From: Verrucomicrobiota bacterium
GTDB taxonomy: Bacteria > Verrucomicrobiota > Verrucomicrobiia > Verrucomicrobiales > Akkermansiaceae
Length of the DNA: 33,106 nucleotides
Assembly (NCBI GenBank): GCA_004294095.1
Contig: RDZR01000057.1
Span: forward strand, 1 to 33,106
Direction of reading: 5' to 3'
Made by a program: the position numbers and the translations under genes. Within the stretch, counting starts at the first letter, position 1, and every line of letters starts with the position of its first letter. Shown here in pieces: positions 2,542 through 28,219 of this stretch. The notes below the pieces were generated by a model, which saw only the letters and a program-made list of their open reading frames with translations, was not told where the DNA came from and searched no databases.

Positions 2542-3942
2542 TCAAAACTCGACCTCCACTCCCATTCTTCCCACTTCGATCTGCCCAGCATGTTCACTCA
2601 GCAAGGCCTCACGTAACGTGCTTGCCGATTGCTCCTCGCCATGCACCAACCAGACCTTCTGCTTGCTGCCGGTGATGCGTCTAAAATAATCTAACAGTTC
2701 AGAATGATCGGCATGGCCAGAAAATGAATCGATGATTTCAATCTTCGCTCTCACGCGGTATTTACCGCCGAGAATAGAGACCTCTTTGATGCCATCGCGG
2801 ATTCGCCGCCCCAACGTGTTTTCTGCGCAGTAACCGACGAATAGCACCGTCGTCCCCGGCTCGGTGATGTGGTTTTTCAAATGGTGCAAAATGCGGCCCG
2901 CCTCGCACATGCCAGAAGCTGCGATGATGATCGATGGCCCTTCTAACTGATTCAGTGCTTTAGATGCAGTGACAGATCGCACCAAGCTGAGATGATCGAA
3001 CCCGAATGGATTTTCTCGTTCAAAAAGTGACTGATAGACTTCCTCGTTGAAACAATCAGGATGCAATCGGTAAATTTCCGTCGCACTCACGGCAAGCGGG
3101 CTATCCACAAATACGGGAATTTTCGGAATGGCACCTTTTTGAAAAAGCTCGTGAAGCACATAGAGCAATTGCTGCGTGCGCTCAACCGCAAAGGCCGGAA
3201 TCAAAACCTTGCCCCCGCGCTTCAATGCCTGCTTGAGGACATTTTCAAAGTGATCATCCACGCCCGGCGGAGCCTCGTGCTCGCGGCCACCATACGTGCT
3301 TTCCATCAGTAAAAAATCGATCTCTCCAACCACCGCCGGATCTCGCAAAACCTCATTGCCGCCGCGCCCCACATCGCCGGAAAATAAAAATCGCTTACTC
3401 GTCCCATCTGCTGAATCAACAATTTCTAACAGCACCTGCGCGCTGCCCAAAATATGTCCCGCATCAAAGAACGTGAGATGCACGCCATCCGTCAGCGGCA
3501 TGCGGCGGCCATATCCCAGCGTCACAAATTGGCGCAAGCATTGCTCCGCTTCTTGTTCGGAATAGAGAGGCTCCACAGGCTCCAAGCCTTCCTTGCGGCG
3601 GTGCTTATTGAGCCACTCGGTATCGCTCGTCTGAATTCGCGCAGAGTCTGCGAGCATGATCTGGCATAAATCTCGCGTGGCGTGCGTTGCGTAAATATTT
3701 CCGGAAAATCCCTTCTTCACCAAGTTGGGCAAATTGCCACTGTGATCGATGTGTGCGTGAGAAAGAACCACCGCATCGAGCGAGGCTGGGTCAAAATGCG
3801 GGAAATTCCAGTTAATCTCATACGCGTCTTTGCGCGATCCTTGGTAAAGTCCGCAATCTAACAGAATTTTCTTGCCGTTAATTTCTAACAAATGCTGCGA
3901 ACCCGTTGTCGTGCCCGCTGCTCCACAAAATTTGAGTTTCAT
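2542..3942 (-). CDS. MBL-fold beta-CASP RNA metallo-hydrolase
   Basis: A 466-residue metallo-beta-lactamase-fold nuclease of the CPSF73/beta-CASP type. The zinc-binding motif SHAHIDHSG lies near residues 61-70, followed by DAGHILGSAQ, FSGDVGRGG and the C-terminal SGHADHSELLDYF, which supply the remaining metal ligands. The beta-CASP insert shows VLIPAFAVERTQQLLYVL and IIIAASGMCEAGRILHHLK. Family members are endo- or exoribonucleases acting in RNA processing or decay in the cytoplasm. The ATG at 3942 is preferred; a GTG lies one codon upstream at 3945. The stop of the ArgA-like gene is 9 bases upstream of this ATG, so the two are probably co-transcribed. The coding sequence carries four copies of the TGTTAGA motif. 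Confidence 0.93.
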   Translation of the reverse strand: MKLKFCGAAGTTTGSQHLLEINGKKILLDCGLYQGSRKDAYEINWNFPHFDPASLDAVVLSHAHIDHSGNLPNLVKKGFSGNIYATHATRDLCQIMLADSARIQTSDTEWLNKHRRKEGLEPVEPLYSEQEAEQCLRQFVTLGYGRRMPLTDGVHLTFFDAGHILGSAQVLLEIVDSADGTSKRFLFSGDVGRGGNEVLRDPAVVGEIDFLLMESTYGGREHEAPPGVDDHFENVLKQALKRGGKVLIPAFAVERTQQLLYVLHELFQKGAIPKIPVFVDSPLAVSATEIYRLHPDCFNEEVYQSLFERENPFGFDHLSLVRSVTASKALNQLEGPSIIIAASGMCEAGRILHHLKNHITEPGTTVLFVGYCAENTLGRRIRDGIKEVSILGGKYRVRAKIEIIDSFSGHADHSELLDYFRRITGSKQKVWLVHGEEQSASTLREALLSEHAGQIEVGRMGVEVEF

Positions 3943-3951
3943 CACCCCAAC

Positions 3952-5052
3952 CTAAGCATCCTTCGCAGCACCATCCAGCTGATTTTGAAAAACCCTCGAA
4001 TCACGTCCACTCTCCTCATACTGTTGCCGGCGCACTGGTGGTAAATGATCAATCGTCGCGGCCTCATAGCCCAATTTCTCAGTAAAAAATTCTGCGGCGC
4101 GGTTGCTCAATGCGAAGACACGCTTCATCCCGCGTTGGCGAGCGATTGCTTCCACATGCTGCACTAATTCGATGCCGTAGCCGCGCCCTTCATGGGCCTG
4201 TTTCACATATAAACACGCCACTTCGGCGGTTCCTTCCTTAGCGTAAGGATGCAACGCCACGCAGCCGACCACGTGATCATCGATGGTCATCACATAAAAA
4301 TCATCAATCGCCGCCAAAATATCTTCATACGTTCGCGCGATCAATTTTGTCCGCCGGACTGATCTACCAATCATCCCTAACAGCTCAGGAATATCCTCCT
4401 CGCGCAGCTTGCGAATCATCCGGTAACTATCCGCATGCACCATCGTGCCGACTCCTTCGTTAGAAAATAATTCATCCACTAGCACGCCCTGCTGGCGGCC
4501 ATTGAGCACATGCACCCGCGGCACACCTCGGTGGCACGCTTCTGCGGCAGCGAGTAAAAGTTTCGCACTTGCCGCGTCTGTCTCTGCGGCAAGCCTCAGC
4601 GCATCAGCCGCGCGGATCGCATGAGCCGGCGCGCCGTTGACCAAGATCGCTTCTTCTAACAGCGTGATAATTTTCGCCACCTTAATCTCTTTGGCAAATT
4701 CGATCACCGCTGGATCCAACGGACCCGTCATCGATGCATCAATAATCGCAGATTGCCCGCGTGCTAAAATTTCCAATGCTTCCACCGCGGCGGCTGGATC
4801 ATGAATCGGCCGCGATACACGAGCTGCCATAATCTCGCACTCGAGCGTCCAATCATACAAATCTTTCAGATCCCCGCCGAGCACGCCGAGGACCAATTTC
4901 ACCCCAAGATCTTCAAGAACTGCTAGATCTAACAGAGTCTCTGCAATCGCTGGCTCAGGCAGCAATCCGGCCTCAATCAGGACCAAAAAAATCTTGCCAC
5001 GAAATTGCGGAATATACTGAAGAACCTCGCGGATATCACTCTGTTGCGTCAC
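3952..5052 (-). CDS. argA: N-acetylglutamate synthase (ArgA-type, reduced kinase-like domain)
   Basis: About 366 residues, built like ArgA: an amino-acid-kinase-like N-terminal domain and a C-terminal GNAT acetyltransferase. The order of landmarks follows E. coli ArgA: QYIPQFRGKIFLVLI near the start, VDELFSNEGVGTMV at the domain junction, MIRKLREEDIPELLGMIGR opening the GNAT domain, the acetyl-CoA loop EGRGYG, and ending VRRQQYEESGRDSRVF. It would make N-acetylglutamate from glutamate and acetyl-CoA, the first step of arginine synthesis. The kinase-like part is about 75 residues shorter than in the 443-residue E. coli enzyme. A GTG at 5052 puts the N-terminus where the family begins and has AGGA eight bases upstream; an ATG at 5091 would add 13 residues. 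It heads an operon with the beta-CASP gene. Confidence 0.85.
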   Translation of the reverse strand: MTQQSDIREVLQYIPQFRGKIFLVLIEAGLLPEPAIAETLLDLAVLEDLGVKLVLGVLGGDLKDLYDWTLECEIMAARVSRPIHDPAAAVEALEILARGQSAIIDASMTGPLDPAVIEFAKEIKVAKIITLLEEAILVNGAPAHAIRAADALRLAAETDAASAKLLLAAAEACHRGVPRVHVLNGRQQGVLVDELFSNEGVGTMVHADSYRMIRKLREEDIPELLGMIGRSVRRTKLIARTYEDILAAIDDFYVMTIDDHVVGCVALHPYAKEGTAEVACLYVKQAHEGRGYGIELVQHVEAIARQRGMKRVFALSNRAAEFFTEKLGYEAATIDHLPPVRRQQYEESGRDSRVFQNQLDGAAKDA

Positions 5053-7184: not shown

Positions 7185-10100
7185 TTAGACTGGACTTTTT
7201 TCTTTCGGCGATGATTTCCAGAAGCCGCCTGATGCGAGCTGACTCCATGACCAGCGGCTCCAGCGCAGGATGGCAAATGCCAGCCAGATTGCCCAGACCA
7301 GCATCAGCCCACGGTAGAACCAAATGGAAACTGAGATCACGGAAGGATCGGGCAACTGGCGGCTTTCGCTGCGGGCTTGATACCAGTTAAGCTCAGAAGC
7401 AGTCGAGCCCATCCCAGTGATCCACATTTCGGGACGGCCGAGCAGTCCTTCGTGCAGGATGTAAAGCAAGATCAGCAGTAGCGGCAGCACGCTGAGTATC
7501 AAAAGCACTTGGCCCAAGTTGAAGAGTGCTTGAGGCATGCTATGGCCAAAACGCCCGCGCAGAGAAATGAGGTAGAGCCACCCAATGACAAAAAATCCAC
7601 ATAGCCACGGCGCTTGAGTAAGGCCCACGATGAGTAAAATCCACTCGTAACTTTTCAACGGTGAAAGTGGCAGCATGCCGAGAATCAGGCCGAAAAGCAT
7701 GGCGCTGATCAAGATCACCCAAAAGCGCACGGCCGGGCCATTGAGCGGGCCATTGGTCCAGATGATCCAGCGATCGTTAGCTGAGAGCCTGATGCTGCTT
7801 TGGGTGTTTGCAGATGGGATTGGCAGCTTTACGCGATCCGCATGCGCGTGAGTGGGTAATGGGCTGGAGAGTTTCCATGCCAGTTGGATGTTTTGCTCAC
7901 CCGGCTGGAGCGGAATTAACAGGCGAGATCCATCTCTACGAACGGGAGTTTCCACAGATTGAAGCATGAGGCTGGTGATCTCCGCTGCGGGATCAATCTC
8001 GATCGCGAACTCACTGCCTAAGCTCGTTAAAACATCCAGCGAGAGCTCGGATGTCCTCTGCCGCTGGCCAAGGCTCATGCTGTGTTTCGCGCGGTGGATG
8101 GTCATGGTCTCGCCAACCGTGGCTTCTGGCCGGGAAATTTGCAGTGCGATCGTTTCCGTTGGCCATGGCTGCCATGTGGGAACGAGCCGATTTTCATTCA
8201 TTTCAAAAACCGGAGGAAGACCTGTTAATACTAGATTCCACGTAGGCGAAACTGACACCTTCCAGAACTCTGCCCAGCGATCATTTTTCTCAGCCTTGAG
8301 CTCGATGCGCTCGGTGATGCCAAGCTCGCTTTCCCATGCAAGCACTTCTTCCTGCGCGCCTAAGCGGACTTCGATCCGATTGTTCTCCACATTGAAACCA
8401 GAAGATAAAACTCTCTCACCTGGCACGAGTGGTAAACTGAGCGAGATGGCTTTTCCTTTGGGCGATAGGCGACGCACCTCTGTGTGCACGGACCATGTGA
8501 GGCCCAGCTCTAAAGAACGTTGCACTTGCAGGAGCGGTTGAAAATCGTTCCGCTCATAGGACGTTTCCGTGCGGTTACTGGGAGCTTTTTCCGCGAAGAA
8601 AACTTGGGCTTCTGGGCTCCCATTTTGCTTCACTCCCGTGTATGTCCAATCGGGTGCTGCGATGCTGACGTATTGCGGTTTTAGCAAAAAGCTCCATTGC
8701 CAATCGCTGCTCGGGACGAGGCCTTTGACGGTGATTTGGTGAATCCCTGCCGGAAGGACAACCCACAAGTATCCATCCTTGCGAATCGTCGGTAGGTCAT
8801 TCTGCCCATTTGCCTGCACCGTCAATGGCGACCACGTAGGCAAGCGGCCAGGAATAGGGACTGCGGTTTCCCTCGCGCAATGAATCTCTGCTTCCATGGT
8901 CAGTGCTCGGCCCGTAAGTGAGAGGCGGACTTGGGGGATCTGTGCTCGCTGTTCGAGATCGTTCGGCGTTTCGAGAATGCGCTCGCGGAGTTGGGCGAGC
9001 ATTTCTGGTGATGGATATTGAGCACTCGCTTGCGGAGCGGATAAAAAAATCAGGCTGATGCCGATGCAGATCATACTCGCTCGTGCAGCCGCCGCAGATG
9101 ATTGCTTATTCGTTGGGGGGAATTTCACTGTGCGCAAAAGAAAATACAGTAAACCTAGTAATAGCCCGACCCGTATCACCGTAAAAATCCGCTCTAGCCA
9201 TAAAGGAACTAACACGAAGGAAATGGTTTCTTTCGCGCTGACCGGGCCAGACCAACCAAATGCAGAGGTGCTACCCGTCCACTCGGGAACTGCTGGCCCA
9301 GTCTGAATTTTTGCGTCGCTAGAGTAGTTCGCCATTTTTTTGATATTCAGGATTCCGCCGTAGGGATCTTGTTCCGCACGAGCTCTAAATGATTCAGATG
9401 GAGTCGTTGGAGCGGCCATTTCCACAGCGGGTGCAATCTGCGAACTCGCAATCATGAAGTCCTTTGCCAACTGTGGGTAAATGGCTTGTTGAATTTGTTT
9501 TACTAGGAATGGAGTAAGTAACGCGAGCAGTAGGCATGCGGCTACGACGGTTAGTATCTGAAAACTTTTTTTGAGTTTTCCAACCGGCACAAAATGCTGG
9601 GCGACCAACATGCCGATCAGCAACAGCCACGAGAACCTTGGCGCGCCTGTTTCTTGACAGGTGAATACATAGGCGAGAAATGCGATCGCTCCCATTTTCC
9701 ACCCCCAAATGCGCCCTAGGGTAATCGTGACCATCAATAGAAAAAATACATCTAACAGAGTCCACGCAGTCAGCCAATCACCGTGGGACCAATCTGCGCC
9801 CCATATGGCTAGGAGGCGCCAGCCGGGTGGTAGAAATAGGTTCGCATTCAAGCTCTCCGCATCTGCCTGCCAACCGGTGGCTGGGATGCTCGATTGATTT
9901 TCCATCCTGCCTACCGCTTGCAAATCTAGCGATCTCTCGCGGACTTCAATGCCCTCGGCTTGAGTGAGTGGATTGCGGGTGATGAGCTGGCTTTGCTCGT
10001 GAATCTTCGCCGCGCCTAACATCTGGCCCTTCGCGACATCGAGGCGCCAAGTTTGCAGCAGGCTGCCTTTGATGGAATCTTTATAAGTAAATTTCTTGCC

Positions 10101-11186
10101 ATCTTCATCCAGCCAGAATTGCCGCGCCATCGCTAAGCCGGGAGGTTTTTTTTCACCCATGCCGCGCATTTTTTCAACGATTTGAAATGGGCTTTTCGTA
10201 TCCCATAAGTGCAGGGGAAAGTTGCGCCAAGCATCGGGGAAACTCGTTTGTGTGACATCAATCACGGGAATATCTGCAAACTCGATGAGGCGGAAGGCGG
10301 TGTTATGACTCAGAGCGATCAGTTCCTCTGCAACGAGCGGCTTAGCACCTTCTGCATAGGTAAATTTCTCAAGCGGTGTGGTGCGAAATGCGGTGATCGC
10401 GATCGTCCATTTTCCCGAGCGCACTTGGGCGTTGAGCAGGCCTTGAGTATCGATTTTACAAGGGATGATCGAGCTAATCCCTGAGATCTGCCACCCATCT
10501 GGCAAACAATTTCCTAACACTTCTTCTCTGCTTTTTCCGGTGACGGTGAGCTCGATCTCCGTATCCAACCACATCGGAGAGCCGTCGCGCAGGAGGCGAT
10601 AGACTTTTGCGGTGAGTGAGTTTTTGTCTGCTTCCTCATTGTTAGATCGCTGGAGCCATAAGGTGCCGCTTTCATCCCAATTGGGCAATTCGATGGGATT
10701 GCCATTTAACACCAGTTCAAAGATGCCGATGTCTTGGGGAACGAAGAGTTGCTGAGGCATTTCAGGCCACTGGAAACTTCCGGTCAGTTGCCAATCTCCG
10801 ATGCCGAGATACACGCATGGTTTTTGATCTCTGGCTAAGATCGGGAGCTTCAACTCGCCCGCCATGAGCCCGAGTGGCCATACTTCAGAATCGCCAGGCA
10901 GAGAAATCCACGTCGGGTGGTAAACTCGCACTCGGTAAGAAAAACTCCCGCCTTTTTCATGCGCGTCGATCTTGAGTGAACTCGGCCATGCAGCGATTTT
11001 TTGGGCCGCGTCATCATAAGGTGCGGGAACCGTGGGCGGAACTTCGCCCCACGTCGCCCAATTTTTCCACTCACGCAGTGGCTCAGGCACACTCTGACTT
11101 TCTTGCGCCGTTGCCACCGATGGAATGACCGACAAGATGCCGACGAGAATCAAAAACCAACATTTGCCAAAATTCGCTTTTTGCAT
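7185..11186 (-). CDS. Large unknown envelope protein (1333 residues, multiple membrane helices)
   Basis: I do not recognise a named family. A signal peptide (CWFLILVGILSVIPSVATAQ) opens the protein. Residues about 30-465 form a hydrophilic, probably periplasmic part. Three to four membrane helices follow around 470-565 (LLDVFFLLMVTITLGRIWGW, WLLLIGMLVAQHFV, ILTVVAACLLLALLTPFLV), then one near 655-685. Near residue 705 a second signal-peptide-like segment (ICIGISLIFLSAPQASAQ) leads into a second large beta-rich periplasmic part to about 1150. A C-terminal bundle of helices lies at about 1155-1305. The repeated plan suggests an ancient fusion of two secreted-plus-membrane units. It sits alone, convergent with the XRE remnant and divergent from the delta-60 protein. 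It carries two TGTTAGA motifs. Confidence 0.85.
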   Translation of the reverse strand: MQKANFGKCWFLILVGILSVIPSVATAQESQSVPEPLREWKNWATWGEVPPTVPAPYDDAAQKIAAWPSSLKIDAHEKGGSFSYRVRVYHPTWISLPGDSEVWPLGLMAGELKLPILARDQKPCVYLGIGDWQLTGSFQWPEMPQQLFVPQDIGIFELVLNGNPIELPNWDESGTLWLQRSNNEEADKNSLTAKVYRLLRDGSPMWLDTEIELTVTGKSREEVLGNCLPDGWQISGISSIIPCKIDTQGLLNAQVRSGKWTIAITAFRTTPLEKFTYAEGAKPLVAEELIALSHNTAFRLIEFADIPVIDVTQTSFPDAWRNFPLHLWDTKSPFQIVEKMRGMGEKKPPGLAMARQFWLDEDGKKFTYKDSIKGSLLQTWRLDVAKGQMLGAAKIHEQSQLITRNPLTQAEGIEVRERSLDLQAVGRMENQSSIPATGWQADAESLNANLFLPPGWRLLAIWGADWSHGDWLTAWTLLDVFFLLMVTITLGRIWGWKMGAIAFLAYVFTCQETGAPRFSWLLLIGMLVAQHFVPVGKLKKSFQILTVVAACLLLALLTPFLVKQIQQAIYPQLAKDFMIASSQIAPAVEMAAPTTPSESFRARAEQDPYGGILNIKKMANYSSDAKIQTGPAVPEWTGSTSAFGWSGPVSAKETISFVLVPLWLERIFTVIRVGLLLGLLYFLLRTVKFPPTNKQSSAAAARASMICIGISLIFLSAPQASAQYPSPEMLAQLRERILETPNDLEQRAQIPQVRLSLTGRALTMEAEIHCARETAVPIPGRLPTWSPLTVQANGQNDLPTIRKDGYLWVVLPAGIHQITVKGLVPSSDWQWSFLLKPQYVSIAAPDWTYTGVKQNGSPEAQVFFAEKAPSNRTETSYERNDFQPLLQVQRSLELGLTWSVHTEVRRLSPKGKAISLSLPLVPGERVLSSGFNVENNRIEVRLGAQEEVLAWESELGITERIELKAEKNDRWAEFWKVSVSPTWNLVLTGLPPVFEMNENRLVPTWQPWPTETIALQISRPEATVGETMTIHRAKHSMSLGQRQRTSELSLDVLTSLGSEFAIEIDPAAEITSLMLQSVETPVRRDGSRLLIPLQPGEQNIQLAWKLSSPLPTHAHADRVKLPIPSANTQSSIRLSANDRWIIWTNGPLNGPAVRFWVILISAMLFGLILGMLPLSPLKSYEWILLIVGLTQAPWLCGFFVIGWLYLISLRGRFGHSMPQALFNLGQVLLILSVLPLLLILLYILHEGLLGRPEMWITGMGSTASELNWYQARSESRQLPDPSVISVSIWFYRGLMLVWAIWLAFAILRWSRWSWSQLASGGFWKSSPKEKSPV

Positions 11187-20582: not shown

Positions 20583-20837
20583 ATGCTTCCACGCGTGCGT
20601 GAGTTGCATCTAACATACTACGGAATGCTGGCTGATCAGCGAGGATTGGCGGAAGAATGCCTTGCTAGCTCGGCAGCGACGGTGGCAGAGCTTTTTCTAG
20701 AACTTTCCGCAAAATTCCAATTCGGCGTGGAAATGAAGCACCTCCGCGTGGCGGTGGATGATGTTTTTGTGCCGTGGGATTATTCCTTGCACGATGGAGC
20801 ACGCATTGCTTGGCTGCCGCCGATGTCGGGCGGCTGA
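20583..20837 (+). CDS. moaD: Molybdopterin synthase sulfur-carrier subunit (MoaD)
   Basis: An 84-residue ubiquitin-like protein ending in PPMSGG. The terminal Gly-Gly is the site that is adenylated and thiocarboxylated so that MoaD can donate sulfur to the pterin precursor. Other family features are the N-terminal strand LHLTYYGMLADQRG, the TVAELFLEL helix, the LRVAVDDVFV strand and the HDGARIAWLPP segment before the tail. Length matches the family. The ATG at 20583 is chosen because a frame opening upstream at 20487 overlaps the CotH gene and adds non-homologous residues. The moaE-MOSC gene starts 11 bases after the stop, so the two are co-transcribed and their products should form the MoaD2-MoaE2 complex. 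A TGTTAGA-family motif lies at 20609-20615. Confidence 0.9.
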   Translation: MLPRVRELHLTYYGMLADQRGLAEECLASSAATVAELFLELSAKFQFGVEMKHLRVAVDDVFVPWDYSLHDGARIAWLPPMSGG

Positions 20838-20848
20838 TTCTCAAATCT

Positions 20849-21790
20849 ATGGATGACCAAATTGATTTTTCCTTGTCTCACACGCCGATCGTCGATGCTT
20901 CCATCTCGGACGAGCCGGCGGCAGGTGCCGTGCTTACTTTTGATGGGCGGGTGCGAAATCACAACGTGGGTCGAGCCGTTTCCGCGCTGGAATATCAAGC
21001 CCATGGCGTGCTGGCCGCACAAGTTGGTAGGCAAATTTTGCAAGAAACCTTCGATCAATACGGGCTGCTTCGAGTGCGCGCGATTCATCGCACAGGCCAC
21101 TTGGCCATTGGCGATTTAGCGGTGCGGGTGACGGTGGCATCGGCGCATCGTCAGGCTGCTTTTGAGGCAACTCGGGTGATCATGGAGCGCCTGAAATACG
21201 AATTGCCAATTTGGAAAAAGGAAACTTACCTCGACGGCAGTTCGGAGTGGGTCGGGCCAGACGCCTTGCCTGCCGCAACGGGCGCGCCGATTCCTGCTGC
21301 TATCTCACCCGCGTGGGACGCTTCGATTCACCAAATTTGGATTTCTCCAGAAAATAATTTTCGCGGTCGCCACGGGCAAGAGGCGCTGCAAAATCCCATT
21401 TGCGCCGCAGAGGAAATCGTCTGCATCGCCGGCAAAGGGTTGTTAGGAGATCGTTACTTTGATTTTAAGCCTGACTACAAAGGCCAAATCACATTTTTTG
21501 ACGAAGCAGTGCGCCTAGCGCTGATGAACCATTTGCATCTCCCCGAGCTGTGCGCTTCGCTTTTCCGCCGAAATGTGTTGGTCTCGGGGGTGGATCTTAG
21601 CCAATGGATTGGCCGCCGTTTTTCTCTTCAAGGTGTCGAGTTCGAGGGCTCAGAAGAATGCGCGCCGTGTTATTGGATGGATCAAGCGATCGCTCCTGGC
21701 GCGGAAGCTTTTTTGAAAGAACATTGCCGCGGTGGCTTGCGCGCCCGCATCCTTACGGACGGCGTTTTGCGCGTGAATGCTCGCGGTTAA
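20849..21790 (+). CDS. moaE: MoaE-MOSC fusion: molybdopterin synthase catalytic subunit joined to a MOSC domain
   Basis: A 313-residue two-domain protein. Residues 1-145 are MoaE: AGAVLTFDGRVRNHNVGR, SAHRQAAFEATRVIMERLK, and PIWKKE at 120-125 with the conserved lysines of the active site, followed by SSEWV. Residues about 160-313 are a MOSC domain: GKGLLGDRYF, KGQITFFDEAV, FRRNVLVSGVDL and ECAPCYWMDQ, whose cysteine is the one conserved in MOSC proteins. MoaE transfers sulfur from MoaD to cyclic pyranopterin monophosphate; MOSC domains handle activated sulfur on a cysteine. The usual arrangement is two separate genes. The start is the ATG at 20849; an upstream in-frame start at 20774 would overlap moaD. 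The fusion suggests sulfur transfer or a further cofactor-modifying step in one polypeptide. Confidence 0.88.
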   Translation: MDDQIDFSLSHTPIVDASISDEPAAGAVLTFDGRVRNHNVGRAVSALEYQAHGVLAAQVGRQILQETFDQYGLLRVRAIHRTGHLAIGDLAVRVTVASAHRQAAFEATRVIMERLKYELPIWKKETYLDGSSEWVGPDALPAATGAPIPAAISPAWDASIHQIWISPENNFRGRHGQEALQNPICAAEEIVCIAGKGLLGDRYFDFKPDYKGQITFFDEAVRLALMNHLHLPELCASLFRRNVLVSGVDLSQWIGRRFSLQGVEFEGSEECAPCYWMDQAIAPGAEAFLKEHCRGGLRARILTDGVLRVNARG

Positions 21791-24037: not shown

Positions 24038-24865
24038 TTAGAGGCAAACTCTGCGGAACAGGGCATCGAGCGGAAGCTGCAGGCCGATGTAAAAATCGCC
24101 AAACTCGCCATAGCGCGCGCTGACTTCATCAAAGCGCATTTCATAAACGATTGCTTTGATGTCGCTGGTATTTTTCGCGAGCAGAGTGACGCCCCACTCG
24201 TGTTCATCAAGTCCAGTTGAGCCGGTAATGAGTTGAAGAATGCGCCCAGAATACGTCCTGCCGACTTTTGCGTGCCCTGCCATCAATTGGCGTCGTGTCG
24301 GGTAATCTAACGAATACCAATTGTCATTTCCTTGGCGCCGCTTGCTCATCGGATAAAAACATATCACCGGCCAATCCGGCAGCACCGGATAGAGGCGATG
24401 CTGGCGGTAATGCGCCATGCGGTCCTCAAACTCTTGGAGTGCCTTAGCGAATTCTGTGCTCTTGGGATCGAGCGATTTTTCGGCAATTAAAGTTTCTTCG
24501 ATGTATTGCTCGCGGGTGGTGGTGTATTCAGAACCCTCAGTCTGTGAAAGATACGAATACGTCGGAATTAAAATTTCTGGCCCAAGCGAAAGGCTAAGTT
24601 GCTTCTCAAAGGCGTTGGCCACTTGCAAATCTGGGGTAAGCAGCATGAAGCCCAAATCTGCCTTAGGGCCGACCACCGCATAGACTAACAGATGGGTGTC
24701 TGGGGTGGAGCGTATTTCTTGCACCAACTCGCTGAGCTGCGTTTTCGCGTGGCGTTGATCATCCTCACTGTAGAGCGCCCATTGTGAGTGATCTATCTGA
24801 TAGAAAAGATGCAATACATGCCATCCTTCGTGGGGCACGACGGGTTGAAATTCTTCATTCGGCAT
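24038..24865 (-). CDS. hemQ: HemQ, coproheme decarboxylase (chlorite-dismutase family)
   Basis: A 275-residue haem-binding enzyme that would convert coproheme to protohaem, the last step of the coproporphyrin-dependent haem pathway. The diagnostic stretches are CFYPMSKRR, with the family's catalytic tyrosine (Tyr171), DNWYSLDYPTRRQLMAGH with the proximal haem histidine (His198), VGRTYSGRILQLITGS and EWGVTLLAKN, then MRFDEVSARYGEFGDFYIG. The ATG at 24865 is preferred; the frame is open to 24943, which would overlap the upstream gene. The gene follows the acidic membrane-protein gene by 19 bases, so both are likely in one transcript. The middle (about 110-160) seems longer than in Firmicute HemQ. 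Its TAA overlaps a TGTTAGA motif. Confidence 0.92.
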   Translation of the reverse strand: MPNEEFQPVVPHEGWHVLHLFYQIDHSQWALYSEDDQRHAKTQLSELVQEIRSTPDTHLLVYAVVGPKADLGFMLLTPDLQVANAFEKQLSLSLGPEILIPTYSYLSQTEGSEYTTTREQYIEETLIAEKSLDPKSTEFAKALQEFEDRMAHYRQHRLYPVLPDWPVICFYPMSKRRQGNDNWYSLDYPTRRQLMAGHAKVGRTYSGRILQLITGSTGLDEHEWGVTLLAKNTSDIKAIVYEMRFDEVSARYGEFGDFYIGLQLPLDALFRRVCL

Positions 24866-24884
24866 ATGGCGTAGAAAATGGAGA

Positions 24885-26057
24885 TCAGCGTTGGTTAATC
24901 GAAATATTTGTCTTAAACAAAGAGACAAAATTACCCGACCCATCTATCGAAGATGCTTCATAGACTTCAATGGTCCATGGCTTTTCATTCCCCGCACGGT
25001 ATGAAGTGAATAGCCCGATCTCTTCAAACCCAGCTGTCCCAACCACTTGGACTTTTTGCTCTTTTCGCAGATTGATGACTTTCGTGTCGCCCATGGCCGT
25101 GCCTTCAGAATCACGAAAGATGATGCGCAGCGCTGCGCTGCCTTTGCTGCAAGAAATTTCCATGACGGGTAAAAGCACGCTGCCGCGCCGGAAGGTATCT
25201 GCATTTTCGCCAGTGGAAATCGGCTTACGCCAAAATGTCTCGACTGATTGGATGGTGATCGATTTACCGTTCATCGGGAAATCTGCTGCAACGGCAGGTT
25301 CTTCGATTTTGGGTAATCGGTTGATACCTGCCACGACAAATATCACGGAGCTCGCTAACAAAATCAGAACCATTAGCGACAGGCCTACGCCCTCAAGCGT
25401 AGAGATTCGAAGCGACTGTTTCCACGCGCTCGGATCAGGCTCAGCTAGCGGTTTTTTTTCGACAAATTCACCAAAGCCTAAATCCACTTTTTCGGGAACC
25501 ATTTCATCCTCACTTTGTGCCTCAGCCGGTTCGTCTTTAGCGTAATCATTCTGCGCAAGCTCGACTTCTGGAATTTCTGCAGTGCTGGATTTTTCACTTT
25601 TCGTTTCATTGTCCTCGGCCGTTTCAGGTGCGGTTAAGGGGGGTTTTTCAAGTGGTGTTTTTTTGCCGCGAGGTGTGGCTGGCACGTCGTCCCAGTCGGA
25701 CAAATCATCAATATCTCCAACTCTAGCAAGCGGCGCCGTCGTTTTGTTTAATGGATTTCTCTCACCGGGCTTCGCGCGGGTGATGTTTGTCATCATCGCA
25801 TCTTTGTGGCGAGGGGCAGCCGGAATATTTTGCGAAGCGGGTTTTGCCTCTATGCTTTGACTTTCAAAGGATGGACGAGGCTTGGGCAATTTTGTTTCCG
25901 TTGCAATCTGCGACGGTTTCAATTCCAAATCGTCGATGTCCTCGATGTCATCCCAAAGACCAGTATCAATGGTATTTTTATTCAAATTTCCCAAAGTTGG
26001 ACGATGCCGAGGTGGCAGTTGCGGAGATCTGGATGATAGTGGTGAGTCGCCGGACAT
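24885..26057 (-). CDS. Acidic single-pass membrane protein of unknown function
   Basis: About 390 residues, no family recognised. Residues 1-220 are low-complexity, rich in Glu, Asp, Pro and Lys, and probably disordered. Two related acidic patches occur, LWDDIEDIDDLEL and IDDLSDWDDVP, that could be short docking motifs. A single membrane helix (VGLSLMVLILLASSVIFVVAG) near residue 240 precedes a beta-rich extracytoplasmic domain of about 130 residues containing SKGSAALRIIFRDSEG and VQVVGTAGFEEIGLFTSYRA. The topology would be cytoplasmic N-terminus and periplasmic C-terminus. The ATG at 26057 (MSGDSP) is preferred to one eight codons upstream. It precedes hemQ by 19 bases, so it may be co-expressed with haem synthesis. 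Confidence 0.75.
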   Translation of the reverse strand: MSGDSPLSSRSPQLPPRHRPTLGNLNKNTIDTGLWDDIEDIDDLELKPSQIATETKLPKPRPSFESQSIEAKPASQNIPAAPRHKDAMMTNITRAKPGERNPLNKTTAPLARVGDIDDLSDWDDVPATPRGKKTPLEKPPLTAPETAEDNETKSEKSSTAEIPEVELAQNDYAKDEPAEAQSEDEMVPEKVDLGFGEFVEKKPLAEPDPSAWKQSLRISTLEGVGLSLMVLILLASSVIFVVAGINRLPKIEEPAVAADFPMNGKSITIQSVETFWRKPISTGENADTFRRGSVLLPVMEISCSKGSAALRIIFRDSEGTAMGDTKVINLRKEQKVQVVGTAGFEEIGLFTSYRAGNEKPWTIEVYEASSIDGSGNFVSLFKTNISINQR

Positions 26058-26191
26058 GTGAGTGAAAGAGTTTAACCTCAAATTTTAGAATGACCAGCGA
26101 GAATCTGAAATCTGGCATGATCAGTAAAAATACGGTTGTATTTTCCAATTTCCAAGTCCATCGCATGTCGACAATTTTTTAGTTCATAGCC
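26058..26191. promoter_or_regulatory. Divergent promoter region with hairpin
   Basis: This gap separates the leftward membrane-protein/hemQ operon from the rightward ferredoxin operon. It holds a perfect 7-bp inverted repeat, AAAATAC (26127-26133) and GTATTTT (26138-26144), around GGTT. Its midpoint position suggests an operator affecting one or both directions. No clear -35/-10 pair is visible. Confidence 0.35.
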
Positions 26192-26449: not shown

Positions 26450-26821
26450 ATGAGTTCAAATCCGCGTCTTAGCCCACTTGCCAAACGCGTTTTGGCAGAG
26501 TGGCATGGATGTGATGAACCATTGGATGTCCACGCGGGTGTTCACCGCGCGGCAGATATGTTAGATTCGATCTTACGTGCCTCGGGCATGCAAGACGGGC
26601 TGCTCCAGCAAGAAGTCATCGATGCATGGAAAAAACTCGCAGGCGAGGTAGTCGCTAGCCACTCCGCGCCCGTTTCCATTCGCAACGGGCATCTCATCTT
26701 GCGCGTGACTCAACCGACGATGCGCCATCATTTAGAACAAATGAAACCCTTGCTTTTAAAACGATTGCAGTCTGTTTTGGGTGCAGAAGCGATTCGCTCA
26801 ATCCAATTTTCCTTAGGCTGA
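26450..26821 (+). CDS. DUF721 / DciA-like protein
   Basis: A 123-residue protein with the DUF721 pattern: a helical N-terminus, VIDAWKKLAGEVVASHSAPV and the strand segment RNGHLILRVTQPTMRHHLEQ, ending in a helix and LGAEAIRSIQFSLG. DUF721 includes DciA, the loader or modulator of replicative helicase DnaB in bacteria without DnaC. A role in replication initiation is therefore likely but not proven for this short version. The TGA stop shares one base with the next ATG (TGATG), so translation is coupled to the HAD-NUDIX gene. A TGTTAGA motif lies at 26559-26565. Confidence 0.82.
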   Translation: MSSNPRLSPLAKRVLAEWHGCDEPLDVHAGVHRAADMLDSILRASGMQDGLLQQEVIDAWKKLAGEVVASHSAPVSIRNGHLILRVTQPTMRHHLEQMKPLLLKRLQSVLGAEAIRSIQFSLG

Positions 26822-27873
26822 TGTTTCAAAACTTAATTTTCGATTGGTCCGGCACTCTGGTGGATGACCTTGGACCAGTGTTAGAAGCCACCAATCATGT
26901 GCTTTCAATTTATGGATTGCCAGCCATGGATCGTGAGCAATTCCGCCGCCGCTTTCGCCTGCCGTATATGGATTTTTACGCGGAAGTATTGCCGGATATT
27001 CCTCTCGCGGAGTTGGAATCTCACTTTCGCCCCGCATTCGATCAGGCACTCACTCCGGTGACAATTTTGCCGCATGCCGCCGAGAAATTAGCGTGGTGCT
27101 CGGCACTTGGGATTCGTTCGTTTGTGCTCACTTCCATGGACACCATCGCCTTCGAGCGCCAGCTTCATGACTTTGGCTTGGCCCACCATTTTGAGGCCAC
27201 CTATTCCGGAGTGCTCGATAAACGTGAGGTGATTCATCAAATCATCGCGCACCACCATTTAGACCCCAAAAAAACCGCCTTCGTCGGCGATATGACTCAC
27301 GATGTGGAAACTGCCCGCCACGGCGGCGTCTCATCCATCGCGGTGCTGACCGGCTACAATCACGCGGAAGTCCTTGCCGCCGCCCGGCCGGATCTAACAG
27401 TGCCTGATTTGAAAGTCCTCAAAGACCTCTGGAGTCTGCGTCTCGATCAACATCGCCCGACGGTCACTGTGGGCGCTCTGCTCTACAATGATCATGCCGA
27501 AATCTTGTTGGTGAAAACTCCGAAATGGAAAAACCTTTGGGGCATCCCCGGCGGGAAAATAGAACGCGGCGAGACGATGCTCCACGCGCTCCAACGCGAA
27601 ATGCTCGAAGAAACCGGCATCGAAATCGACCGCGTGCAATTTGTCCTCGCGCAAGATTCCATCGATTCTCCTCAGTTCATGCGCTCGCAGCATTTTGTGT
27701 TGCTCAACTATCTCGCTCACGCGCAATCCACCGAAGTGGTTCTCAATCACGAAGCGACGGAGTATCGTTGGATAAATCTGTTAGATGCGTATGATTTGCC
27801 TCTTAATGAAGCGACTAAATTTTTGTTAGATCACATCCAACACCACTCTTTGCTGCCCACACCTGATGCATGA
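26821..27873 (+). CDS. HAD phosphatase-NUDIX hydrolase fusion
   Basis: A 350-residue protein with two catalytic domains. Residues 1-205 are a HAD hydrolase of the phosphoglycolate-phosphatase type: motif I DWSGT (8-12), motif II FVLTS (Thr104), motif III Lys134, motif IV GDMTHD (156-161). Motif I has Ser where most HAD phosphatases have a second Asp, so the general acid/base is missing or supplied elsewhere. Residues 213-345 are a NUDIX hydrolase with a complete box, from Gly245 through Glu251 to REMLEETG (259-266), in IPGGKIERGETMLHALQRE. The last eight bases overlap folB. A NUDIX pyrophosphohydrolase and a phosphatase are the activities needed to turn dihydroneopterin triphosphate into FolB's substrate, which makes a folate role attractive, but this is inference. 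Four TGTTAGA motifs lie inside. Confidence 0.88.
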   Translation: MFQNLIFDWSGTLVDDLGPVLEATNHVLSIYGLPAMDREQFRRRFRLPYMDFYAEVLPDIPLAELESHFRPAFDQALTPVTILPHAAEKLAWCSALGIRSFVLTSMDTIAFERQLHDFGLAHHFEATYSGVLDKREVIHQIIAHHHLDPKKTAFVGDMTHDVETARHGGVSSIAVLTGYNHAEVLAAARPDLTVPDLKVLKDLWSLRLDQHRPTVTVGALLYNDHAEILLVKTPKWKNLWGIPGGKIERGETMLHALQREMLEETGIEIDRVQFVLAQDSIDSPQFMRSQHFVLLNYLAHAQSTEVVLNHEATEYRWINLLDAYDLPLNEATKFLLDHIQHHSLLPTPDA

Positions 27874-28219
27874 TGCCATTGAAATTCGTCGTCTCCGCGT
27901 TTCAACTCACATCGGAGTGCCGGACGAAGAACGTGCCTCTCCGCAGGACGTTTGGCTTACGGTGATGATGGTGCCCTCGCAGCCGTGGATCGGCCTGCGG
28001 GATGAAATTTCGCGCACAATCGATTATCACCAAATTTCCATCGAGTTGGAAAAATTAGCATCTTCACGGCCTAGAAAATTGATCGAAACCCTCGCCCTCG
28101 ATGCGGCTGACTATCTGTTAGGGAATCACCCGCTCGCCCGCGTCTCGATCACGGTGGAAAAGAAAATTTTACCCAATACGGAATGCGTGGCAGTGCACAT
28201 CACTCGCGAGGCACTCTGA
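27866..28219 (+). CDS. folB: Dihydroneopterin aldolase
   Basis: A 117-residue protein with the FolB/tunnelling-fold pattern: IRRLRVSTHIGVPDEERASPQ at the N-terminus with the conserved glutamate, TIDYHQISIELEKLA in the middle, LIETLALDAADYLLG as the long helix, and VEKKILPNTECVAVHI at the end with the active-site lysine. It converts 7,8-dihydroneopterin to 6-hydroxymethyl-dihydropterin in folate synthesis. The ATG lies inside the last codons of the HAD-NUDIX gene, an 8-base overlap that implies tight coupling. The gene ends 9 bases before the end of the convergent aminotransferase gene. Confidence 0.9.
   Translation: MHDAIEIRRLRVSTHIGVPDEERASPQDVWLTVMMVPSQPWIGLRDEISRTIDYHQISIELEKLASSRPRKLIETLALDAADYLLGNHPLARVSITVEKKILPNTECVAVHITREAL

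Follow-up and report, generated by a model that had tools for sequence, protein, structure and literature searches.

The HAD-NUDIX fusion gene that overlaps folB in a genome of the Akkermansiaceae (Verrucomicrobiota) probably codes for a bifunctional enzyme acting in the pterin branch of the folate pathway, with a NUDIX pyrophosphohydrolase joined to a HAD domain that is a candidate for a dedicated dihydroneopterin-phosphate phosphatase. The gene lies in a window of 33,106 nucleotides (contig RDZR01000057.1, assembly GCA_004294095.1), which is the whole stretch of DNA analysed here, and is the middle one of three touching genes within 26450-28219, namely dciA, the fusion gene and folB (Table 1). 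One nucleotide is common to the TGA of dciA and the ATG of the fusion gene. The presence of a HAD phosphatase domain and a complete NUDIX box in one protein, noticed in an earlier sequence-only reading, is borne out by Pfam (HAD_2 74 bits; NUDIX 78.1 bits), and so is the overlap of 8 bases with folB, whose ATG stands at 27866 while the TGA of the fusion gene occupies 27871-27873. The source genome comprises 3.0 Mb in 113 contigs and is 97% complete, and the closest named matches to the locus are MAGs labelled Akkermansiaceae or Verrucomicrobiaceae.

Table 1. Features of the dciA, fusion and folB cluster (window coordinates)
Feature	Position	Strand	Evidence
dciA (DciA/DUF721 family)	26450-26821	+	Pfam DciA 69.8 bits; dciA match in 58/65 related loci
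HAD-NUDIX fusion gene, 350 aa	26821-27873	+	Pfam HAD_2 and NUDIX; predicted model
HAD domain, about residues 1-205, phosphoglycolate-phosphatase-like fold	26821-27435	+	Pfam HAD_2; fold search
HAD motif I DWSGTLVDD, residues 8-16, nucleophile D8	26842-26868	+	alignment of 114 relatives
NUDIX domain, about residues 213-340	27457-27840	+	Pfam NUDIX 78.1 bits, residues 214-327
Complete Nudix box, residues 245-267	27553-27621	+	sequence; 34 aligned fusions
8-nt overlap, fusion stop and folB start	27866-27873	+	sequence
folB, dihydroneopterin aldolase family, 117 aa	27866-28219	+	Pfam FolB 69.5 bits

In the proposed pathway, FolE2 would supply 7,8-dihydroneopterin triphosphate, which the NUDIX domain would split into pyrophosphate and the monophosphate; removal of the last phosphate by the HAD domain would then give 7,8-dihydroneopterin, and FolB, encoded in the overlapping frame, would convert this to 6-hydroxymethyl-dihydropterin for FolK. 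The parts would form a kit that relatives join variously, as HAD-NUDIX, HAD-FolB or HAD-NUDIX-FolB chains or as HAD or NUDIX alone beside folB. The most constant member of the kit would be the HAD, which is most likely a dedicated dihydroneopterin-phosphate phosphatase, as a candidate put forward from sequence. The substrates assigned to the two domains, like any channelling between them, are inferred. We also lean, with somewhat more reserve, towards the wider view that the HAD represents an unrecognised DxS phosphatase family dedicated to dihydroneopterin phosphate within a modular pterin factory, of which the triple chain would cover the whole way from the triphosphate to 6-hydroxymethyl-dihydropterin.

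The HAD domain belongs to the HAD superfamily (HAD_2 cut-off 23.8, residues 5-175), and D8, T12, S105, K134, D157 and D161 are all present in the window protein. Its motif I, DWSGT, has a serine (S10) where DxD phosphatases have the second aspartate, which places the protein outside the canonical DxD enzymes. P-type ATPases (DxT) and phosphonatases (DxA) likewise lack the second aspartate. The acid/base position is occupied by serine in 112 of 114 HAD sequences and by asparagine in the other two. In HAD phosphatases the second aspartate of motif I acts as the general acid/base (PMC8069645, PMC12715507). Across 34 aligned fusions D8, T12, K134, D157 and D161, which include the nucleophile and residues of motifs III and IV, are invariant (34/34), and the HAD is the better conserved domain, with a mean identity to the window protein of 65% vs 52% for the NUDIX. 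The invariant nucleophile and motif III/IV residues, together with the serine motif, point to an active but unusual enzyme, as predicted from the alignment, and make a preference for anhydrides a real rival. A literature search for the motif strings returned two papers, which by their titles deal with a survey of paediatric tumours and with a kinase from plants.

A predicted model of the fusion has a mean pLDDT of 92.2 and a pTM of 0.63, the two domains being confident and their mutual placement less so. The fold search with this model returned general HAD and NUDIX relatives and barely probed the NUDIX part; for the HAD, the nearest solved folds are 2ah5 (Z 25.1, rmsd 2.3, 204 residues) and 3mc1_B (Z 24.8, rmsd 2.4, 205 residues), with 2nyv also matched (Z 23.8, rmsd 2.7, 203 residues). 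The best NCBIfam match of the HAD is a phosphoglycolate phosphatase model, far under its cut-off, and indeed the domain falls short of both TIGR01449 (39.4 of 180 bits) and NF009695 (58.6 of 225 bits).

The NUDIX domain scores well above the Pfam cut-off of 21.1, and its box, GX5EX7REUXEEXGU, is complete, with E251, R259, E260, E263 and E264 invariant in all 34 aligned fusions. Its sequence matches are general MutT-like, and against the NCBI NudB model NF006961 it reaches 30.7 bits, under the cut-off of 103. Six NUDIX places are found in the source genome, that is, the fusion and proteins of RppH-, MutT-, MTH1-, NudF- and KsgA-NUDIX type (the labels are ours), and none of these proteins reaches a listed NCBI cut-off, the KsgA part apart. 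A separate dedicated NudB, which the sequence-only reading had named as evidence against itself, was not seen among the six: the best score with the NudB model is 46.5 of 103 bits for the RppH-like protein, followed by the fusion and by the MutT-like protein at 26.5 bits, scores that leave room for a promiscuous enzyme. That the fused NUDIX lies further below the NudB model than the RppH-like protein does counts against the main explanation. The KsgA-type protein is itself a fusion, of a KsgA/RsmA rRNA dimethyltransferase (ksgA model 221 bits, cut-off 171) with a C-terminal YfcD/IDI-like NUDIX (L003, G000:C26:26643-26993 and upstream); in relatives, NUDIX matches recur in open frames of about 450-490 aa, of which L125, L127, L129 and L134 match L003 at 51-55%. 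The RppH-like gene of the source genome (L001:728-1929) overlaps by 4 nt the end of an opposite-strand gene that reads as HAD-like.

The downstream protein is a member of the FolB family by its Pfam score (cut-off 31.8) and its conserved residues. Among the NCBI models it lies above the cut-off of TIGR00526 and under that of the equivalog TIGR00525 (55.6 of 72.15 bits). E22, Y54, E74 and K99, which we take to be the catalytic residues of dihydroneopterin aldolase, reach at least 95% conservation across 111 relatives. As for the rest of the window, the region upstream of the cluster at 24038-26081 has, on the opposite strand, a chlorite-dismutase-family gene, matched in 41 of 53 loci (L007-L059), and a poorly conserved gene of 398 aa; one protein encoded at 20774-21790 combines MoaE and MOSC domains, and an open reading frame of 1333 aa (7185-11186) has no Pfam match at E 0.001.

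The HAD-NUDIX/folB arrangement is not a matter of chance. In a scan of one genome per species, 65 related loci were collected, with HAD and NUDIX both present in 47 and a same-strand folB and a dciA match in 58 each. The seven loci without folB comprise three HAD-NUDIX loci with no folB match in the available flank (L014, L016, L018), one that reaches a contig end (L058), two with a distant HAD (L069, L070) and one with a NUDIX match only (L071). The contig of L069 carries the label Parcubacteria; there (3462-4559), 18 nt separate the end of an independent NUDIX gene from the distant HAD homologue that follows it, and no folate gene was seen by eye in 5.4 kb. Within the order, the fusion finds a match of some kind in 286 of 288 genomes, which in many of them is just another HAD or NUDIX protein, and FolB is found in 274 of the 288. 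Distances were taken from 131 HAD and 89 FolB places among the matches listed, which give 84 genomes with both; several g2 genomes are not in this count, nor are FolB entries from genomes with no HAD entry. Among these listed matches, the HAD lies within 250 bp of folB on one strand in 76 of the 84 genomes and within 10 kb in four more (769, 774, 2163 and 6724 bp). Homologues of the fusion lying away from folate genes, another outcome that had been set as adverse, do occur and are rare: among the matches listed they are confined to four of the 84 genomes (G059, G095, G150, G226), all of group g3, in which the fusion is kept.

Conversely, FolB without such a HAD is found in G245 and in many genomes of families f2 and f4, so that other phosphatases would serve f2 and part of the f4 bacteria. 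Family f1, which has about 168 genomes by hand count, includes five that lack FolB (G054, G068, G209, G244, G255), and in these, as in G245, which keeps FolB, HAD matches are no better than 2e-11, below orthologue strength. The five retain FolE2 and FolK. This joint loss of HAD and FolB is modest evidence, since the two are one gene or neighbours in that family.

The domains are also shuffled. Among 110 HAD entries, which represent 109 distinct loci (L061 and L079 are on the same contig), 56 are HAD-NUDIX, 25 HAD alone, 23 HAD-FolB (22 loci) and 6 HAD-NUDIX-FolB; the loci were partly chosen and those with a masked or short HAD left out, and the counts are thus not frequencies. HAD-FolB chains occur in groups g2, g4, g6, g9, g11 and g12 and in family f5, as well as in named loci including L054 and L064; g2 is probably Akkermansia and g9 probably Rubritalea. 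The triple chains, of 495-498 aa, are found in six genomes (G039, G043, G088, G091, G105, G146), all of family f4, group g20; identity to the L095 chain is 87-89% for the remaining five, and a model of the triple fusion has a mean pLDDT of 76.1, with low values in the linker and over part of FolB. A fifth arrangement is seen in G103 (f4, g41; locus L112), where a NUDIX gene without HAD (ATG 2245, end 2688; 220 bits to the NUDIX profile) overlaps the ATG of folB (2685) by 4 nt and the HAD profile matches no open reading frame in the 4.9-kb stretch. That G103 has a HAD orthologue at another place is judged unlikely from the match strengths, because the best match of this genome to the whole fusion (7.5e-34) is weaker than those of HAD-only genomes in its family (about 1e-50 in G007).

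On a tree of the HAD, the presence of the NUDIX changes at least seven times, the fusion to FolB at least seven times and the triple fusion once, counts that are rough, with many unresolved forks, long branches that meet, and gain and loss not separable. Elsewhere in the class, HAD-NUDIX overlaps folB by up to 38 nt in family f11 and precedes it by 504 nt in f17, while HAD alone overlaps folB by 4 nt in f14; intergenic gaps were computed from the most upstream start codon, which overstates overlaps and makes the frequent values of 4 nt the safer ones. Six loci of family f7 have the HAD without folB within 8.5-9 kb of sequence, and a scan of viral contigs with a HAD-FolB protein confirmed no relative. 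The HAD-FolB and HAD-NUDIX-FolB fusions, the overlap of a lone NUDIX gene with folB and the adjacency of HAD and folB together strongly support a tie of both domains to the FolB step, much more strongly than the window alone, as far as gene arrangement can tell. Adjacency and fusion do not by themselves fix a substrate.

Of 26 genomes surveyed for NUDIX places, 14 have the HAD and folB without the fused NUDIX, and a replacement was searched for in these 14. They hold 86 NUDIX places, of which 46 were fetched, a motif filter giving a NUDIX open reading frame in 42. None of these 42 is an orthologue of the fused NUDIX; they are RppH-, KsgA-NUDIX-, MutT- and MTH1-like (labels partly ours), with NUDIX-PPK2 found besides in g2. 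NrtR-like proteins of greater length occur in G083, G130 and G136, and the first of these genomes also has a Nudix_N type. The remaining 44 places include several of KsgA-NUDIX length, the rest being weak, and may hold a divergent replacement; G287 has four NUDIX places, three of them among the matches listed. Over loci L114-L183 (n=70), 64 have a NUDIX open reading frame, and fusions score 155-166 bits to the window NUDIX domain against at most 47.8 for all others. With no orthologue of the fused NUDIX among the 42 read, another protein must carry out the first step in these genomes or the HAD must do more than assumed. In two g2 genomes (G080, L147:1283-2629; G024, L151:1248-2591), an RppH-like NUDIX is fused to polyphosphate kinase 2 (PPK2) in a chain of 447-448 aa.

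The substrate of the first step would be available in any case. The source genome encodes FolE2 (296.7 bits) and FolK (113.2 bits); type I FolE, considered as the source of the substrate, has no match there. Among 37 genomes checked, FolE2 is found in 34 and FolE in two others, with neither in the fragmented G253, so that dihydroneopterin triphosphate would be produced whether or not the NUDIX is fused. FolE2 of the source genome stands beside queC- and queD-like genes (L073, G000:C97; the queC label is from the translation), and one cyclohydrolase thus probably serves both queuosine and folate. The FolB-less genomes keep FolK, and a bypass by PTPS-III, that is, a PTPS with glutamate replacing the active-site cysteine, was considered as the reason for the loss of FolB and HAD. 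A PTPS search of 34 genomes gave exactly one match in 33 and none in G253; the 24 proteins read of these 33, ten of them from FolB-less genomes, all have a cysteine three residues before HGH and are QueD-like, including those of four of the five FolB-less f1 genomes. With the cysteine in 24 of 24, this bypass does not account for the loss in the genomes read.

The proposal that the fusion supplies both steps between dihydroneopterin triphosphate and dihydroneopterin thus stands in part. It gains from the connection between the FolB step and the two domains, as seen in the fusions, in L112 and in the adjacency in 76 of 84 genomes among the matches listed, and loses from the absence of the NUDIX in many relatives with HAD and folB, from a HAD without the acid/base aspartate and from the many genomes of the order that have FolB and no such HAD. 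The first two of these weaknesses feed a reading in which the HAD alone strips the phosphates stepwise with a preference for anhydrides (from the triphosphate DHNTP to DHNDP and DHNMP), the NUDIX being a losable accessory and a general phosphatase perhaps taking the last phosphate. This we regard as unlikely, though worth keeping in mind: serine replaces the residue given as acid/base in PMC8069645 in nearly all sequences, and the NUDIX is lost where HAD and folB persist, the NUDIX genes there being of other types. Against it, the lone NUDIX that overlaps folB in G103 indicates that this domain matters without the HAD, the fold is that of monophosphatases, and any other NUDIX protein might perform the first step. 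As a tentative analogy, the DxS motif may be closer to DxT, as in P-type ATPases, than to the DxD of phosphatases.

A house-cleaning nucleotide hydrolase, with a MutT-like NUDIX and a nucleotidase-like HAD that adjoins folB fortuitously or only for the sake of expression, would suit the general MutT-like matches, the four genomes of 84 (among the matches listed) with the fusion away from folB, and a first cluster gene, dciA, for which we know of no folate role; it is nevertheless improbable, as the same HAD is fused directly to FolB in several lineages, with and without the NUDIX, and separate MutT- and MTH1-like proteins exist in the source genome. Lower still is the probability that the substrate of the HAD lies on the side of the other product, with FolB cleaving phosphorylated dihydroneopterin to glycolaldehyde phosphate and the HAD clearing this or the derived phosphoglycolate. 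The phosphoglycolate phosphatase-like enzymes among its best model and nearest folds fit such a role, and a HAD-FolB fusion suits any pathway neighbour of FolB, but such a role leaves unexplained why a NUDIX hydrolase whose box is invariant should be the third partner, and FolB retains what we take to be the ordinary dihydroneopterin aldolase residues. Finally, a HAD that is dead or weak and merely holds NUDIX and FolB together is hardly credible: the aspartate of motif I is lost and a non-catalytic HAD protein is known (PMC12632274), but D8, T12, K134, D157 and D161 are invariant in the aligned fusions, the HAD is better conserved than the NUDIX, and it persists in genomes that lack the NUDIX and carry folB as a gene of its own. 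A pterin-branch enzyme with a dedicated HAD phosphatase thus remains the preferred reading.

Compared with known systems, the window NUDIX resembles FolQ of Lactococcus lactis and NudB of Escherichia coli in its domain and box, in the de novo folate genes of its genome and in the reaction proposed, and shares a folate-gene context with folQ as described in PMC1971073. In that 2007 paper FolQ is the NUDIX enzyme of the first step and a phosphatase without specificity is believed to take off the last phosphate, while deletion of nudB in E. coli lowers folate (PMC5389931). The window NUDIX differs in its fusion to a HAD and in its low NudB score, FolQ being set beside it by description only. HAD enzymes fill missing phosphatase steps in thiamin and riboflavin synthesis (PMC4921024, PMC12051542), and the role proposed here is alike; it differs in the pathway, in the recurrent link to FolB and in the serine of motif I. 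The likeness to phosphoglycolate phosphatases is in fold (2ah5, 2nyv) and in weak NCBIfam matches, with the HAD under the cut-offs of all phosphoglycolate phosphatase models listed and DWSGT in place of DxDGT. The window FolB has the family match and conserved residues of a dihydroneopterin aldolase, and is unlike the usual FolB in that its gene overlaps the fusion and that relatives fuse it to HAD or HAD-NUDIX.

In a June 2026 review, the phosphatase in the bacterial pterin figure is marked as unidentified (PMC13259868). Within the open-access papers listed, no HAD, HAD-NUDIX or HAD-FolB enzyme of folate synthesis was found, nor was a defined sequence family of dihydroneopterin-phosphate phosphatase. 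Collectively, the HAD-NUDIX protein is a strong candidate for the missing phosphatase of folate synthesis, and a HAD family that is connected by several arrangements to its neighbours in the pathway offers a specific and testable candidate for this long-open step, in bacteria that probably include Akkermansia (group g2). If true, folate engineering would gain enzymes made of a single chain, and the catalysis of a HAD phosphatase that has serine for its acid/base aspartate could be probed.
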